A stretch of DNA of 64,000 nucleotides from Methanobrevibacter thaueri (GTDB lineage Archaea > Methanobacteriota > Methanobacteria > Methanobacteriales > Methanobacteriaceae): NCBI RefSeq assembly GCF_015062915.1, contig NZ_SUTJ01000001.1, positions 6,045-70,044 on the forward strand, given 5' to 3'. Positions 24,284 to 59,601 of the stretch are shown one piece after another; the first letter of the stretch is position 1; the number at the start of each line of letters is the position of its first letter. Made by a program: the position numbers and the translations under genes. Below the pieces are notes generated by a model, which was not told the DNA's origin, made no database searches, and was given only the letters and a program-made list of their open reading frames with translations.

Positions 24284-25330
24284 TTAATTTACATCCCTAT
24301 ACATTTTATCTAAAAAGCTTGCAAGTGAAATGATATCCTGGCAGTTGTGCTCTATAATAGGCACAACAGGTCCAATGTTATTCCTCTCCAGGTAAGTGTC
24401 ATAATATCCTGGAATATACTGTCCAGGAACATCTCCCTCACGCTCGATTCCGAACATTTCCCTTTCAATTGTTTGCAATTGGCAATTCGGCAGCTCATCG
24501 CCCCATAGGCTTTTTGCAAAGTACATCAAATCAAGGTGCGGAAGGTCAAGATTTCCTTCAATCCTGTTGTATCTGCACCTATTCTTTATGAACGGCACAT
24601 CAAAAGTCTTTCCATTGAATGTGACATGAACGGAGTCCTCATCAAGATGTGTCAGATAGGCTTCAATTATGCTTGACTCTTCTGTGTAGTCTCTCAGGAA
24701 GTATTGTGATGATATGATTTTGCTTCCCTTGATCTCAGCAACCCCAATCAGTATTATTGGAACATTGGATAATCCTTTGGTTTCAATATCCATGAACTTG
24801 AAGTCTTCAGGGTCTTTCAGGCTTATGCTTTTAAGTATATTGTTCCTGCATTTCTTTGTGTACTTGTTCTGGTCAAGAACTGTCATTATGTCAAGGTAGT
24901 CCATATCCTCGATTCTTGAGAGGAATTTTGATGCCACATCACAGTACTTGTCGTGACCTGTCAATGACTCGATTGTGTCATAACCCTTGTTTTTAAGGTT
25001 TTCCTCGGTTTTCACGCCGATTTTTGGAAGCAACTTGAGATTGTGGTTCATCTGGTTTTTGAAATTGTTGTCCTCAATGCTGAAATCGATTTTCTGGGAG
25101 GTCTTGATTTTAAGGACTTCCCCGAATGAGCCTTCACATTTCCTGCAGTCCATTACATCCTCCAGATTCTTTCCCTCATATTCCATGAGCAGCTTTTCCT
25201 TAAGGTCACTGTAATATGATGGAGATAGCTTTCTTGCCTTGCTTTTTGCTTCACTTGAAGGGTTTGCTGAGCTAATGGAGTTGCTTAGCATCTTTCTTAA
25301 ATACTCTTCAAAATTATCATCTTGAGTCAT
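24284..25330 (-). CDS. RNase H-like 3'-5' exonuclease, YprB/MrfB-like
   Basis: 348 residues. The N-terminal ~115 residues include a two-Cys element (DCRKCEG) and a helix-hairpin-helix-like LLPKIGVKTEENLKNKGY. The DEDD exonuclease core follows: FKFMDIETKGL (Asp, Glu), VTFNGKTFDVPFIKNRC (Asp), and HNCQDIISLASFL (His/Asp). This is the YprB (RNase_H_2) family; Bacillus MrfB works with helicase MrfA. A MrfA-like helicase begins at 289 in this window, 24 kb away. No ribosome binding site; a TATA box (CTTTATATTG) about 32 nt upstream implies a very short leader. Confidence 0.85.
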   Translation of the reverse strand: MTQDDNFEEYLRKMLSNSISSANPSSEAKSKARKLSPSYYSDLKEKLLMEYEGKNLEDVMDCRKCEGSFGEVLKIKTSQKIDFSIEDNNFKNQMNHNLKLLPKIGVKTEENLKNKGYDTIESLTGHDKYCDVASKFLSRIEDMDYLDIMTVLDQNKYTKKCRNNILKSISLKDPEDFKFMDIETKGLSNVPIILIGVAEIKGSKIISSQYFLRDYTEESSIIEAYLTHLDEDSVHVTFNGKTFDVPFIKNRCRYNRIEGNLDLPHLDLMYFAKSLWGDELPNCQLQTIEREMFGIEREGDVPGQYIPGYYDTYLERNNIGPVVPIIEHNCQDIISLASFLDKMYRDVN

Positions 25331-25440
25331 TCAATTTAACTTTATTAATCTGACAATATAAAGTTTTTTAATAAAGTACAATTGAATTTTTATAAAATAA
25401 CAATAAGATTTATATATTGTGAATTTCATATAATACATTA

Positions 25441-25575
25441 GGCTACAATGTAGCCTTGAGAGATAGATTAAACAGCCAAATTTAAAATTCATTTCTCTAA
25501 AGCTTGTAAAACAAGTTGTTAGGTAGTTAATTTATTATATTTTCTACCTAACCATCCCAAAAACTATTTTTAATT
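25441..25575 (+). ncRNA. Candidate structured non-coding RNA
   Basis: A TATA box TTATATATT (25410-25418) lies about 27 nt before a run that starts with the hairpin GGCTAC-AAT-GTAGCC (25441-25455). Then come AGAGA/TCTCT pairing (25459-25463 with 25494-25498), CTTGT-AAA-ACAAG (25503-25515) and a perfect 9-bp stem GTTAGGTAG / CTACCTAAC (25518-25526 with 25544-25552, 17-nt loop). T-rich TATTTTTAATTTTT follows at 25564-25577. No open frame or tRNA signature is present. The next gene (25660) has its own TATA region, so this is probably a separate RNA gene of about 130 nt. Confidence 0.5.
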
Positions 25576-25659
25576 TTTACCAAACATTTGCAAGTTAGAA
25601 AAGTATTTAATGTTTTTAAACTATAAATATAATTGATTATTAATTATAAGGTTTAAAAA

Positions 25660-26043
25660 ATGAAACTAAAATTAGCAATAATATTCGGAATTGTGATATG
25701 GGTCTTATCCTATATACTCTCATCAATACTCGGTCCAATATTCACCGACAACCTTCCATACATTGACCTTATTATACCCCTAATTACCATAGTCGTCACA
25801 GGATTTTTTGGAATACTGTACATCCGAAATATTGAGACAAATGAAGTTGTTGAAGGCCTACTGGCCGGGATGATTTTCATTATAGTGGACATCATTCTAG
25901 ACATGATATTTTTCGTTGTGCCAAACACACAAAACATTATGTTTGATAATTTCCCAATGCATGTACTTTCTGTGGCAATACTGACATTACTGATTACTAC
26001 ATTTTTAGGATATTTAGCGCAAATGAAAATCGATTTAAAATAA
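25660..26043 (+). CDS. Small integral membrane protein, four helices
   Basis: 127 residues with four hydrophobic segments (about 4-24, 35-57, 68-92 and 103-122) and a lysine tail. AAGGTT precedes the ATG. I recognise no family. It lies 14 nt upstream of the phosphopantothenate synthetase gene and may be co-transcribed with it, but a role in CoA metabolism is not evident. Confidence 0.6.
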   Translation: MKLKLAIIFGIVIWVLSYILSSILGPIFTDNLPYIDLIIPLITIVVTGFFGILYIRNIETNEVVEGLLAGMIFIIVDIILDMIFFVVPNTQNIMFDNFPMHVLSVAILTLLITTFLGYLAQMKIDLK

Positions 26044-26057
26044 GGAGACAATAATAA

Positions 26058-26795
26058 ATGATACCAAAATCACATCCACGTTATGAATCTTTACTTTTAA
26101 GAGACAAGATGGTGAAAGCTTCTAAACTAGGTTACTTAGCGGACTCTGCAATGATAGCACACGGCAGAGGAGAGGCTTTTGACTATCTGATTGGTGAAAA
26201 AACAACCTATCCTGCAAAAAGGGCAATGTATGTTGCCGTTGCAGCATTACTTTTATCAAATAATCCAGTCATTTCAGTTAATGGAAACGCAACCGCACTG
26301 GCCTGTGAGGAAATTATCGAGCTGGCAAACAGTGTGGATGCAAAAATCGAAATCAACCTATTCTACAGGACAGACGAGAGAGTTAAAATTATCACACAGA
26401 TTTACAAGGATCTCGGCTATGATAAGATATTGGGCACATTGGATGACGATATCGAATACATTGACGATATTAAAAATAATCGTGCAAGTGCAAGTAAAAC
26501 TGGAATCTACAGTGCCGATACCGTACTGGTGCCATTGGAAGATGGTGACAGGGCTGAAATATTGAAAAAAGGTGGCAAGAACATATTGACAATAGACTTG
26601 AACCCCCTTTCAAGAACATCAAAGATGTCTGACGTTTCAATCATGGACAATATCGTTCGAGCAATTCCATTCATGACAAAAATAGCTGAAGACTTGAAAA
26701 CTCAAGATAAAAAAGTATTGATGGAAATAGTAAACGAATTTGATAATGAAGAAAACCTTAAAGAATCATTGGAACAAATTAAATTAAAAGAGTGA
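26058..26795 (+). CDS. 4-phosphopantoate--beta-alanine ligase (archaeal phosphopantothenate synthetase)
   Basis: 245 residues of the archaeal family once called DUF137: HPRYESLLLRDKMVKA, MIAHGRGEAFDYLIGE, ISVNGNATALACEEI and a C-terminal LTIDLNPLSRTSKMSDVSI. The enzyme joins 4-phosphopantoate to beta-alanine with ATP, the archaeal route to 4'-phosphopantothenate and coenzyme A. Strong ribosome binding site (AAGGAGACAA). The stop codon is 5 nt from the downstream kinase start, indicating an operon. Confidence 0.93.
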   Translation: MIPKSHPRYESLLLRDKMVKASKLGYLADSAMIAHGRGEAFDYLIGEKTTYPAKRAMYVAVAALLLSNNPVISVNGNATALACEEIIELANSVDAKIEINLFYRTDERVKIITQIYKDLGYDKILGTLDDDIEYIDDIKNNRASASKTGIYSADTVLVPLEDGDRAEILKKGGKNILTIDLNPLSRTSKMSDVSIMDNIVRAIPFMTKIAEDLKTQDKKVLMEIVNEFDNEENLKESLEQIKLKE

Positions 26796-56092: not shown

Positions 56093-57799
56093 ATGAAGAA
56101 ATTATTGAAACCGATGAGGAATAAAATCCCTCAGATTTTATTCATTTTCATTTTCCTACTAATTCAGGTTTACTGTGACTTAACCTTGCCCCAATACACA
56201 GCAGATATCGTCAATACCGGAATCCAATACACCAACTTCCAGTTCATCATAGATATCGGAATGATAATGCTTGTGATGGTTGCAATATCTGCTCTTGCAA
56301 CTGTCGGAGTGTCCTATTTTTCAAGCAGAGTGTCCTCAGGATATGCAAAGGATTTAAGGAAAATCATCTACAATAAGGTTTTGAAGTTCTCGAATCATGA
56401 ACTGAATGACATTTCACGCTCTTCACTGATTACTCGAACAACCAATGACGTTAACCAGCTTCAGGGAGTTCTTGGATTCATTTTCACAACACTCATTTTT
56501 GCGCCATTGCTTGGTATCGGCAGCATAATCAAGGTGTTTGAGCTTCAAACCAACCTCTCTTGGATTATCCTGGTCAATTTCGTTGCAATCATAATCCTCA
56601 TGGTTATTGTAATGGTGAGGGTGATTCCCTACTTCAAGATAGTGCAGGAGATAATCGACAGGATAAACAAGACAGCAAGGGAAATCCTGATTGGAATACC
56701 TGTCATCAAGGCTTTTGTTAGGCAGGATTATGAAGAGGAGAAGTTCAGGAAAGTGAACAAGGAGTTTTATGACGTCAACATCTACGTTTTCAAGACCATG
56801 CTTATCATGCTTCCGCTAATGACATTGATAATGAACATTATGGTTGTTCTGATTCTCTATTTTGGAGCATATGATGCAATAAACAGCGGAATACTGACCG
56901 GTGACATCATAGCCTTCATACAATACGCCACCCAAATCGTCACATCATTCTTGATGATTGGAGGATTCTTCATAATGCTTCCGAGATTTCTTGTCTCAGC
57001 AAGGCGTATCAGCGAGGTTTTAAACACTGAAATTACAATAAAAGACGGTGAAATTAATCAAATCCCTGAAAATCCGACAATAGAATTCAAAAACGTTTCA
57101 TACAAATATCCTGGAAGCGAGAAGGAAACACTTAAAGACATCAACTTCACTCTAAAACCAGGCAAGACCACTGCAATCATTGGCGGAACCGGAAGCGGCA
57201 AGTCAACAATACTGAATTTGATTCCACGTCTTCAGGATCCGAGTTCAGGTGAAATCCTCATTGACGGAGTCAACATAAAGGAATATAATTTAAAGAGCTT
57301 AAGGGATAAAATATCCTTCACCCCTCAAAAGGCCATCCTATTCCAGGGTGATGTGAAGTCCAATATGCAAATCGGCAAAAACGATGCAAGCGATGAGGAA
57401 ATAAGAAGAGCATTGGATCTTGCACAGGTTGACTTTGTTGAAAATCTGGCGGAAGAAGTCACACAGGGAGGTTCCAACTTTTCAGGAGGCCAGAAGCAGC
57501 GCCTTTCAATAGCCCGTGCAATCATTGACGAGCATGAGTTTTATCTTTTTGACGACTGCTTTTCAGCGCTTGACATGAACACTGAAAGGAAAATCAAGAA
57601 TAACCTGAAGGAACTTAAGGATTCCTCCATTCTAATCGTTTCCCAGAGGATTTCAACAATCATGGATGCTGATGAGATACTTGTGGTTGACAATGGTGAA
57701 ATCATTGACCGTGGAACACACGAGAGACTTGTTGAAAGCTGTGACATCTACAGGGAAATCGCAAACATTCAAATTGACCAGATGGAGGCATTGTCATGA
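56093..57799 (+). CDS. ABC exporter half-transporter with degenerate nucleotide site
   Basis: 568 residues: six membrane helices (residues 10-310) and one nucleotide-binding domain. Walker A GGTGSGKSTIL and signature FSGGQKQRLSI are normal. The residue after Walker B is Asp instead of Glu (YLFDDCFSALD), and the switch His is replaced by Gln (VSQRISTI). Such losses mark the non-catalytic side of heterodimeric multidrug exporters (BmrC/LmrC type). The partner starts at 57796 (4-nt overlap). No clear ribosome binding site before the start. Confidence 0.92.
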   Translation: MKKLLKPMRNKIPQILFIFIFLLIQVYCDLTLPQYTADIVNTGIQYTNFQFIIDIGMIMLVMVAISALATVGVSYFSSRVSSGYAKDLRKIIYNKVLKFSNHELNDISRSSLITRTTNDVNQLQGVLGFIFTTLIFAPLLGIGSIIKVFELQTNLSWIILVNFVAIIILMVIVMVRVIPYFKIVQEIIDRINKTAREILIGIPVIKAFVRQDYEEEKFRKVNKEFYDVNIYVFKTMLIMLPLMTLIMNIMVVLILYFGAYDAINSGILTGDIIAFIQYATQIVTSFLMIGGFFIMLPRFLVSARRISEVLNTEITIKDGEINQIPENPTIEFKNVSYKYPGSEKETLKDINFTLKPGKTTAIIGGTGSGKSTILNLIPRLQDPSSGEILIDGVNIKEYNLKSLRDKISFTPQKAILFQGDVKSNMQIGKNDASDEEIRRALDLAQVDFVENLAEEVTQGGSNFSGGQKQRLSIARAIIDEHEFYLFDDCFSALDMNTERKIKNNLKELKDSSILIVSQRISTIMDADEILVVDNGEIIDRGTHERLVESCDIYREIANIQIDQMEALS

Positions 57800-59601
57800 G
57801 CCCTAGACCTTTGAGAAGAAAGCCTCCTGAAAAGCCTGTTGACAATAAAAGGGCAATCAGAAACATCCTGACAATCCTAAGGGACCATAAATGGAAGCTG
57901 ACATTGACAGTCATCTGTGCCGTGATATCAACCGCATTCACGATAATAGCTCCATTGCTGATTGGTCAGGCCACAACAATAATATATGACGGAATCGGCA
58001 GGATTATGAACCACACGGGCACAATCGATTTCAACTCATTGATTAATCTCTTAATAATCGTTGTAGTTTTGTATATCATAAGTTCTGTGTTTTCATACCT
58101 TCAAAGCATTTTCCTGATTGAAGTGACAACAAAAATCAGCTATGACCTAAGGGAAAGACTAATGGATAAGATACTGCACCTTCCGATGGACAGTGTTGAG
58201 GAAAACAAGAGAGGAGACATTCTCTCAAGGGTTACAAACGATGTTGACTCCCTTCAAAACGGAATCACCCAGTCATTCATCCAGCTGACAACAGCAATAA
58301 TCACCCTTGTCGGCGTGTTCATCATGATGCTTTTCATCAACATCTGGATGACCCTGGCAACCGTGATTCTCATCCCTATTGCTTTCATACTCATCAGGTT
58401 CATGACAAAGTTTTCACAGAAGTATTTCCTAAGACAATTGGAGTTCAAAGGGTCTCTTAACGGCCAAATCGAGGAGACATTCACAGGCCATGACATCATA
58501 CGCGCATTCAACCAGGAAGACATCTCAATGGAGAGGTTTGAAAATGATAATGAGAACTGGTTTACTCATGAGTGGAAATCACAGTTCTATTCAAGCCTTA
58601 ACGGTCCCTTGATGAACTTCATCTCCAACTTCACATATGTTGTGGTGGCTGTTTTGGGTGCGGTGTTCGTGCTTCAAAGGGTTATTGCAGTTGGGGATAT
58701 TCTGGCATTTTTCCAATACACACAAAGCTTTACAAGACCAATCCAGCAGATAACCCGTGTCATGAATCAGATTCAAACTGCAATGGCTGCAAGCGAACGT
58801 ATTTTCGAGTTTCTTGAATTGGATGATGAGGAAAACCCATCCGCAAGACAGATAAGTGAAATCAAGGATGGAATAAGCTTTGAAAATGTAAGCTTCTCAT
58901 ACACTCCAAATGAGAAAATCATCAAGAACCTGTCATTTGACGTCAAGAAAGGCGAAAAGATAGCTATTGTCGGCGAAACCGGTGCCGGAAAGACAACAAT
59001 CGTCAAGCTGCTCATGAGATTCTATGACATCACTTCAGGATCCATAAAAATCGACGGCATAGACATTGACGAATACGACAAGAACAGCCTAAGGTCAATG
59101 ATTGGAATGGTATTGCAGGATTCATGGCTCTTTTCAGATACCATAACAAGCAATATCGGCTATGGAAACCTTGAATCCTCAGAGGAAGACATTGTTGATG
59201 CTGCCAGGCAGGTGTATGCCGATAATTTCATAAGAAGACTGTCCGATGGCTATGAAAGCGAGCTGAATGAGGATACGGACAACATTTCCCACGGACAAAA
59301 GCAGCTTTTGACAATTGCAAGAACCATTCTTGCCGAAAAGGAGGTTCTCATATTGGATGAGGCCACTTCCAGTGTTGATACCAGAACAGAAAAGCTGATT
59401 CAAAAAGCAATGGATAAGCTTATGGAAGGAAAAACTAGTTTTATAATAGCTCATAGGCTTTCAACTATCCGTAATGCGGATAAGATAATAGTGATTGAAA
59501 ATGGTGAAATAATTGAGCAAGGAACCCACGAGGAATTGCTTGCTCTTAAAGGATATTATTACAATACTCTTAACTCACAGCTTAAGGAAAACCTTGCCTA
59601 G
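57796..59601 (+). CDS. ABC exporter half-transporter, catalytic partner
   Basis: 601 residues: six membrane helices, then Walker A GETGAGKTTIV, Walker B with catalytic Glu (VLILDEATSSVD) and switch His (IIAHRLSTI). The signature is altered to ISHGQKQLLTI (LSGGQ to ISHGQ). Together with the changes in the upstream protein this leaves one functional and one degenerate ATP site, the usual design of heterodimeric exporters. Starts with ATGA overlap and GGAGGC. Likely exports drugs, lipids or peptides. Confidence 0.93.
   Translation: MSPRPLRRKPPEKPVDNKRAIRNILTILRDHKWKLTLTVICAVISTAFTIIAPLLIGQATTIIYDGIGRIMNHTGTIDFNSLINLLIIVVVLYIISSVFSYLQSIFLIEVTTKISYDLRERLMDKILHLPMDSVEENKRGDILSRVTNDVDSLQNGITQSFIQLTTAIITLVGVFIMMLFINIWMTLATVILIPIAFILIRFMTKFSQKYFLRQLEFKGSLNGQIEETFTGHDIIRAFNQEDISMERFENDNENWFTHEWKSQFYSSLNGPLMNFISNFTYVVVAVLGAVFVLQRVIAVGDILAFFQYTQSFTRPIQQITRVMNQIQTAMAASERIFEFLELDDEENPSARQISEIKDGISFENVSFSYTPNEKIIKNLSFDVKKGEKIAIVGETGAGKTTIVKLLMRFYDITSGSIKIDGIDIDEYDKNSLRSMIGMVLQDSWLFSDTITSNIGYGNLESSEEDIVDAARQVYADNFIRRLSDGYESELNEDTDNISHGQKQLLTIARTILAEKEVLILDEATSSVDTRTEKLIQKAMDKLMEGKTSFIIAHRLSTIRNADKIIVIENGEIIEQGTHEELLALKGYYYNTLNSQLKENLA

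Follow-up and report, generated by a model that had tools for sequence, protein, structure and literature searches.

A candidate small structured RNA gene conserved within the methanogen genus Methanobrevibacter

A 64,000-nucleotide stretch of a Methanobrevibacter thaueri contig (hereafter, the window) almost certainly carries an uncatalogued, conserved gene for a structured RNA, transcription being set aside in this judgement. The predicted product is a folded RNA of ~130 bases, which probably performs a job of its own, undescribed so far. The fold did not arise by chance, being conserved in 56 of the 67 genomes of the genus with compensatory changes. Judging from sequence, the element is a new RNA family of a known kind, the intergenic structured small RNA. 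The features of the locus are collected in Table 1.

Table 1. Features of the RNA locus and its neighbours (window coordinates)
Feature	Position	Strand	Basis and details
RNase_H_2 (exonuclease) protein gene, divergent	24284..25330	-	Pfam RNase_H_2, E 1e-36
TATA box TTTATATA of the RNA gene	25409..25416	+	sequence; conserved across the alignment
Structured RNA gene	25441..25578	+	fold z -4.86, covariance model, covariation; predicted ends
Hairpin P1	25441..25455	+	strands 25441-25446 / 25450-25455, GGCTAC/GTAGCC
Hairpin P2	25458..25497	+	stem 25458-25464 / 25491-25497, predicted in L001
Near-invariant core AAACAGCCAAATTTAAAATTCATTTCTC	25470..25497	+	proposed contact surface; identity across 55 loci
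Hairpin P3	25501..25517	+	strands 25501-25507 / 25511-25517
Hairpin P4	25518..25552	+	perfect 9-bp base, 25518-25526 GTTAGGTAG / 25544-25552 CTACCTAAC
T-rich end ACTATTTTTAATTTTT (approximate)	25563..25578	+	likely terminator
Promoter-like element of the downstream membrane protein gene	25597..25611	+	conserved AGAAAAGTATTTAAT-type, after a variable gap
127-aa membrane protein gene	25660..26043	+	outside the RNA
Phosphopantothenate/pantothenate synthetase gene	26058-26795		PPS_PS, E 2.9e-69

The interval folds into four predicted hairpins with a minimum free energy of -32.2 kcal/mol, compared to -16.9 +/- 3.15 kcal/mol for 200 dinucleotide shuffles, none of which folded as well (0/200), and the minus strand of the RNA interval folds less well (z -2.6). 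The three stems that the initial annotation had described beyond the first one, including a perfect 9-bp helix, are recovered here as P2, P3 and P4. The same annotation had seen no coding frame, and indeed no ORF of at least 60 aa is present at the interval on either strand; furthermore, single-base indels occur across species inside the near-invariant core, excluding a conserved reading frame.

We then assessed the distribution of the element. BLAST with the 186-bp interval returned matches in 56 of the 67 genus genomes, in one of which (G065) the match belongs to an unrelated locus and is confined to the TATA region. The covariance-model search that the initial annotation had suggested, with a model built from 47 sequences, recovered the element in 56 of the 67 Methanobrevibacter genomes (including G053, discussed below) and yielded no copy in the family's 16 other genera. 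Thus, the lack of conservation that would have spoken against a structured RNA did not appear and, with the covarying stems described below, the structured-RNA reading is supported. A more sensitive model search, run on a subset, found no copies outside the genus, the weak matches inspected being devoid of the core; weak matches in other genera and in basal genus members (E 0.1 to 1) were rejected for the same reason. In the loci compared, there is one copy per locus, at the same position. When 84,980 named species genomes were scanned with the core pattern, 43 stretches were found, 39 of which belong to Methanobrevibacter, including M. millerae. The other 4, from unrelated bacteria, as well as 4 viral stretches, were rejected as unlike the RNA, 7 of these 8 lying in an open frame.

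Conservation is concentrated in P2. Across 55 loci, positions 25470-25499 are 97-100% identical to the window, whereas identity falls to about 0.24-0.8 in the flanks of the core and amounts to 24-60% near the T-runs and past them; the P2 core, AAACAGCCAAAYUUUAAAAUUCAUUUCUC, hardly changes. A partial tandem duplicate was observed 3' of the RNA in G063 (L094:1650-1780; G063:C2, about 57787-57918), which comprises another AAAAATTCGTTTCTCTAAAG strand and, after it, another P4-like hairpin, TTAGGCAGTT ... CTGCCTAA.

Covariation was tested over 25 base pairs of P1, P3 and P4. In these hairpins, 94.8% of the cells are paired, compared to 89.8% in the shuffled controls and 19-46% (at most 45.5%) when the alignment was slid by 1-3 columns. 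Double (compensatory) changes were found at 14 of the 25 pairs, whereas the shuffled mean was 5.9 and none of 500 shuffles scored as high; the covariation score was 0.199 versus 0.113. All 49 members that were folded beat their own shuffles (z below -3.8). The double changes are confined to P1 and P4. In P1, where 98.2% of the cells pair, 2 of the 6 pairs show double changes from G-C to A-U, giving the forms GGCTAC/GTAGCC, GACTAC/GTAGTC, AGCTAC/GTAGCT and GGTTAC/GTAACC, and G007 carries a 12-bp version, GACTACTAATAA/TTATTAGTAGTC. P4 (91.8% paired) shows double changes at 12 of its 14 pairs, and in G053 (AGGAGGAT/ATCCTCCT) and G007 (TTATAAGGCAAG/CTTGCCTTATAA) the stem is kept with an unrelated sequence. 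The left strand of P2 occurs in slipping variants (GAGAGAT, GAGATG, GAAATG), each of which pairs with the right strand; since the latter hardly varies, the pairing is backed by consistent rather than double changes. P3 (98.7% paired) varies on one side only, and is absent in two loci (L068 and L073) and reduced in two others (L076 and L079), which indicates that it is dispensable. A conserved DNA element or an unrecognized small ORF in place of an RNA would account for the conservation itself and nothing more; given the compensatory stem changes, the single-base indels in the core and the lack of a long ORF on either strand, we regard this explanation as extremely improbable.

The element does not fall into a known family. 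Rfam 15 gave no matches in the window at the gathering threshold, and in a relaxed search the best sub-threshold match had an E-value of 1.9 or worse, SpF01_sRNA reaching 19.3 bits (gathering threshold 55) with an E-value of 3.3. No tRNA was found at the RNA interval, and RNase P RNA (RF00373) was rejected as an identity, given that it has no match here and the real one is located at G000:C17:2140-2420. These results agree with the earlier view that the element does not look like tRNA, RNase P RNA or 7S RNA. C/D or H/ACA guide RNA boxes were not seen upon inspection by eye. In searches of the open-access literature, we found no report of the element, nor of any other conserved RNA with a regulatory role in Methanobrevibacter. 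Separately, G049 contains, besides a full RNase P RNA match, a second, sub-threshold one (G049:C50:3031-3210, L357; 75.7 bits), which may represent contamination or a partial copy.

The RNA gene has promoter and terminator signals of its own, namely, a TATA box whose distance from P1 is nearly constant and T-runs 3' of P4. In the window, the box is centred ~28 nt upstream of the first base of P1, in accordance with the positions given in the initial annotation, and the T-rich end noted there corresponds to T-runs at 25567-25571 and 25574-25578. The transcript ends are predicted from the TATA spacing and these T-runs. Across the alignment, the box is kept as TTTATATA or TATATATA, and T[TA]TATA begins 28-33 nt 5' of P1 in 49 of the 55 aligned loci. 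The pattern lies 41-42 nt from P1 in four further loci (the pattern match being taken as found), and in the remaining two (L091 and L092), where the aligned stretch opens inside the box, the box itself stands 23 nt 5' of P1. Nearly all relatives have T-runs after P4. As had been proposed, the flanking gene has a signal separate from the promoter of the RNA, the promoter-like element in Table 1.

The RNA lies between two protein genes. The upstream gene had been described as MrfB-like, a label that holds for the exonuclease domain and not beyond it, RNase_H_2 being the only match. As this gene is divergent, the RNA is not its leader. Downstream, the 127-aa membrane protein, which has no Pfam or NCBIfam family, is followed by the phosphopantothenate synthetase gene and then by an AAA-type kinase-like gene. 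The membrane protein gene is syntenic with the phosphopantothenate synthetase gene across the genus, and its product is possibly linked to the handling of CoA precursors.

This arrangement raises the question of whether the RNA is a cis-acting leader (riboswitch or attenuator) of the operon encoding the membrane protein and the phosphopantothenate synthetase. Consistent with a leader, the RNA is located on the same strand directly upstream of the operon in nearly all genomes, its end resembles a terminator, and a CoA-biosynthesis gene is a plausible riboswitch client. However, the position is not fixed in the 5'-UTR, as would be expected of a leader or riboswitch: between the RNA and the membrane protein gene lie about 600 bp devoid of long ORFs in G006 and about 1.7 kb in G053. 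Furthermore, in G049 the RNA is deleted, leaving a 133-bp gap, whereas both flanking genes and a stretch similar to the promoter-like element at 25597..25611 are retained, and in carriers this separate conserved element stands between the RNA and the gene. Thus, the RNA is not an obligatory leader of the downstream operon, and we consider a cis-acting role improbable. In G049, the exonuclease gene (L124, G049:C18) gives two separate matches (residues 1-217 and 263-348) and, judging from these matches, looks broken or diverged mid-gene; the loss of the RNA and the damage to the neighbouring gene may have been one event.

To trace the origin of the RNA, we used a phosphopantothenate synthetase tree with 62 proteins; as a single protein tree, it constitutes limited evidence. 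All RNA carriers belong to one clade (support 95/87). G049, G028 and G035 are placed inside this clade, and the RNA-less G066, G062, G030 and G025 outside. The G028 contig stops at the locus, and the G035 contig stops about 240 bp 5' of the gene, with other sequence standing there. The simplest reading of the tree would be one gain within the genus followed by loss in G049. In several lineages outside the clade, the interval is filled by a putative methylated-DNA-cysteine methyltransferase gene (from translation by eye, with a PCHR active-site motif); these loci (L125, L128, L130, L133, L134 and L137), from basal genus members and other genera, have the methyltransferase-like gene between the exonuclease and membrane protein genes.

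What might the RNA do? Invariance centred on one core, with helical caps that drift, is usual for an RNA with an interaction site. Here, the P2 loop and strand are invariant, whereas the caps are fixed in shape and free in sequence, which points to P2 as the contact surface. In the mechanism that we propose, archaeal RNA polymerase would start near 25441 from the TATA box at 25409 and stop at the T-runs after P4, producing an RNA of roughly 125-140 nt with four hairpins. P1 and P4 would serve as 5' and 3' caps, for which shape and not sequence matters, and P2 would display the near-invariant ACAGCCAAA loop and AAUUCAUUUCUC strand as a working surface. This surface would most likely base-pair in trans with one or more mRNAs, as described for Methanosarcina mazei sRNA154 and sRNA41 (PMC5867862). 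We infer transcription, the transcript ends, action in trans and mRNA as the partner from the analysis, and consider an independent small RNA acting in trans through the P2 surface the most likely of the explanations, at about even odds.

To look for partners, we searched 67 genomes for exact occurrences of two 12-mers that are reverse complements of the core, ATTTGGCTGTTT (loop) and AGAGAAATGAAT (P2 strand). Both occur elsewhere in most genomes. Among the 40 and 20 extra sites that were read, most were inside unrelated ORFs and none was at orthologous gene starts; ATTTGGCTGTTT outnumbers the backwards control, apparently through coding bias. A site in argG (4 of the 20) was rejected, since it encodes a conserved protein motif, REMN, and is not at the start codon. 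Complementarity to 16S rRNA, of which ~1.2 kb was readable and the rest masked, reached at best -14.5 kcal/mol, not above shuffles.

Among 47 gene starts in the window, that of the neighbouring membrane protein ranked first by duplex z (-3.2), so that the RNA could be envisaged to repress this mRNA by pairing of UUCAUUUCUCUAAAGCUU with the ribosome-binding site and start codon. The membrane protein starts from 38 genomes have a mean z of -1.6, compared to -0.25 for 313 other starts. However, the orthologues are not independent, the raw duplex energies are barely apart (-12.4 versus -11.8), and the same complementarity is found in two genomes without the RNA, namely, G068 from another genus (z -2.7) and G049 (z -3.1). 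For the latter reason we do not rely on this signal, which probably reflects composition and the AAAUGAA start context, and consider repression of the neighbour very unlikely.

A further alternative is a structural, protein-bound RNA, in which the P2 core would bind a protein (Lsm-like or lineage-specific) for scaffolding or sequestration, with no mRNA pairing. A typical pairing seed spans 8-12 nt, so the nearly 30 invariant bases exceed it and could signify protein binding. This long invariant stretch (~28 nt, spanning the loop and one helix strand) makes protein binding a serious rival, which also agrees with the dispensable P3, the sequence freedom of P1 and P4, and the failure to find a conserved mRNA complement among exact 12-mers in the 67 genomes. 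However, there is no candidate protein, and the RNA is lost in G049 and absent from basal genus members, implying that it is not universally essential. We therefore hold protein binding to be possible but doubtful. A more specific version, a lineage-specific RNP scaffold whose 28-nt core binds a dedicated protein and which would constitute a new functional class that arose once in gut Methanobrevibacter, appears rather unlikely.

In the human gut and the rumen, Methanobrevibacter is an important methanogen. The archaeal small RNAs that are understood through experiments belong to a small number of model organisms; for methanogens, this is mainly Methanosarcina mazei. The RNA described here is single-copy, vertically inherited and recent (inside one genus), with a clear candidate for the functional core, and is thus directly testable; G049, as a natural deletion, and the basal lineages, which lack the RNA, provide ready-made comparisons.

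The RNA resembles Rfam families at large (RNase P, SRP, tRNA, snoRNA-like guides and riboswitches) in having a conserved fold, but none of them reaches its gathering score. The closest parallels are provided by Methanosarcina mazei. Its sRNA41, an archaeal sRNA from an intergenic region, has been proposed to act by masking ribosome-binding sites (PMC5867862); the RNA described here is likewise intergenic but has no demonstrated target. The sRNA154 of the same organism is nitrogen-regulated, with stable hairpins whose loops act on targets (PMC5867862). Although the two RNAs have no known sequence relation and come from different orders of methanogens, and sRNA154 has shown targets (nifH, nrpA, glnA1 and glnA2) whereas ours is predicted from sequence, both are intergenic, form stable hairpins and are conserved within one genus (PMC5867862).
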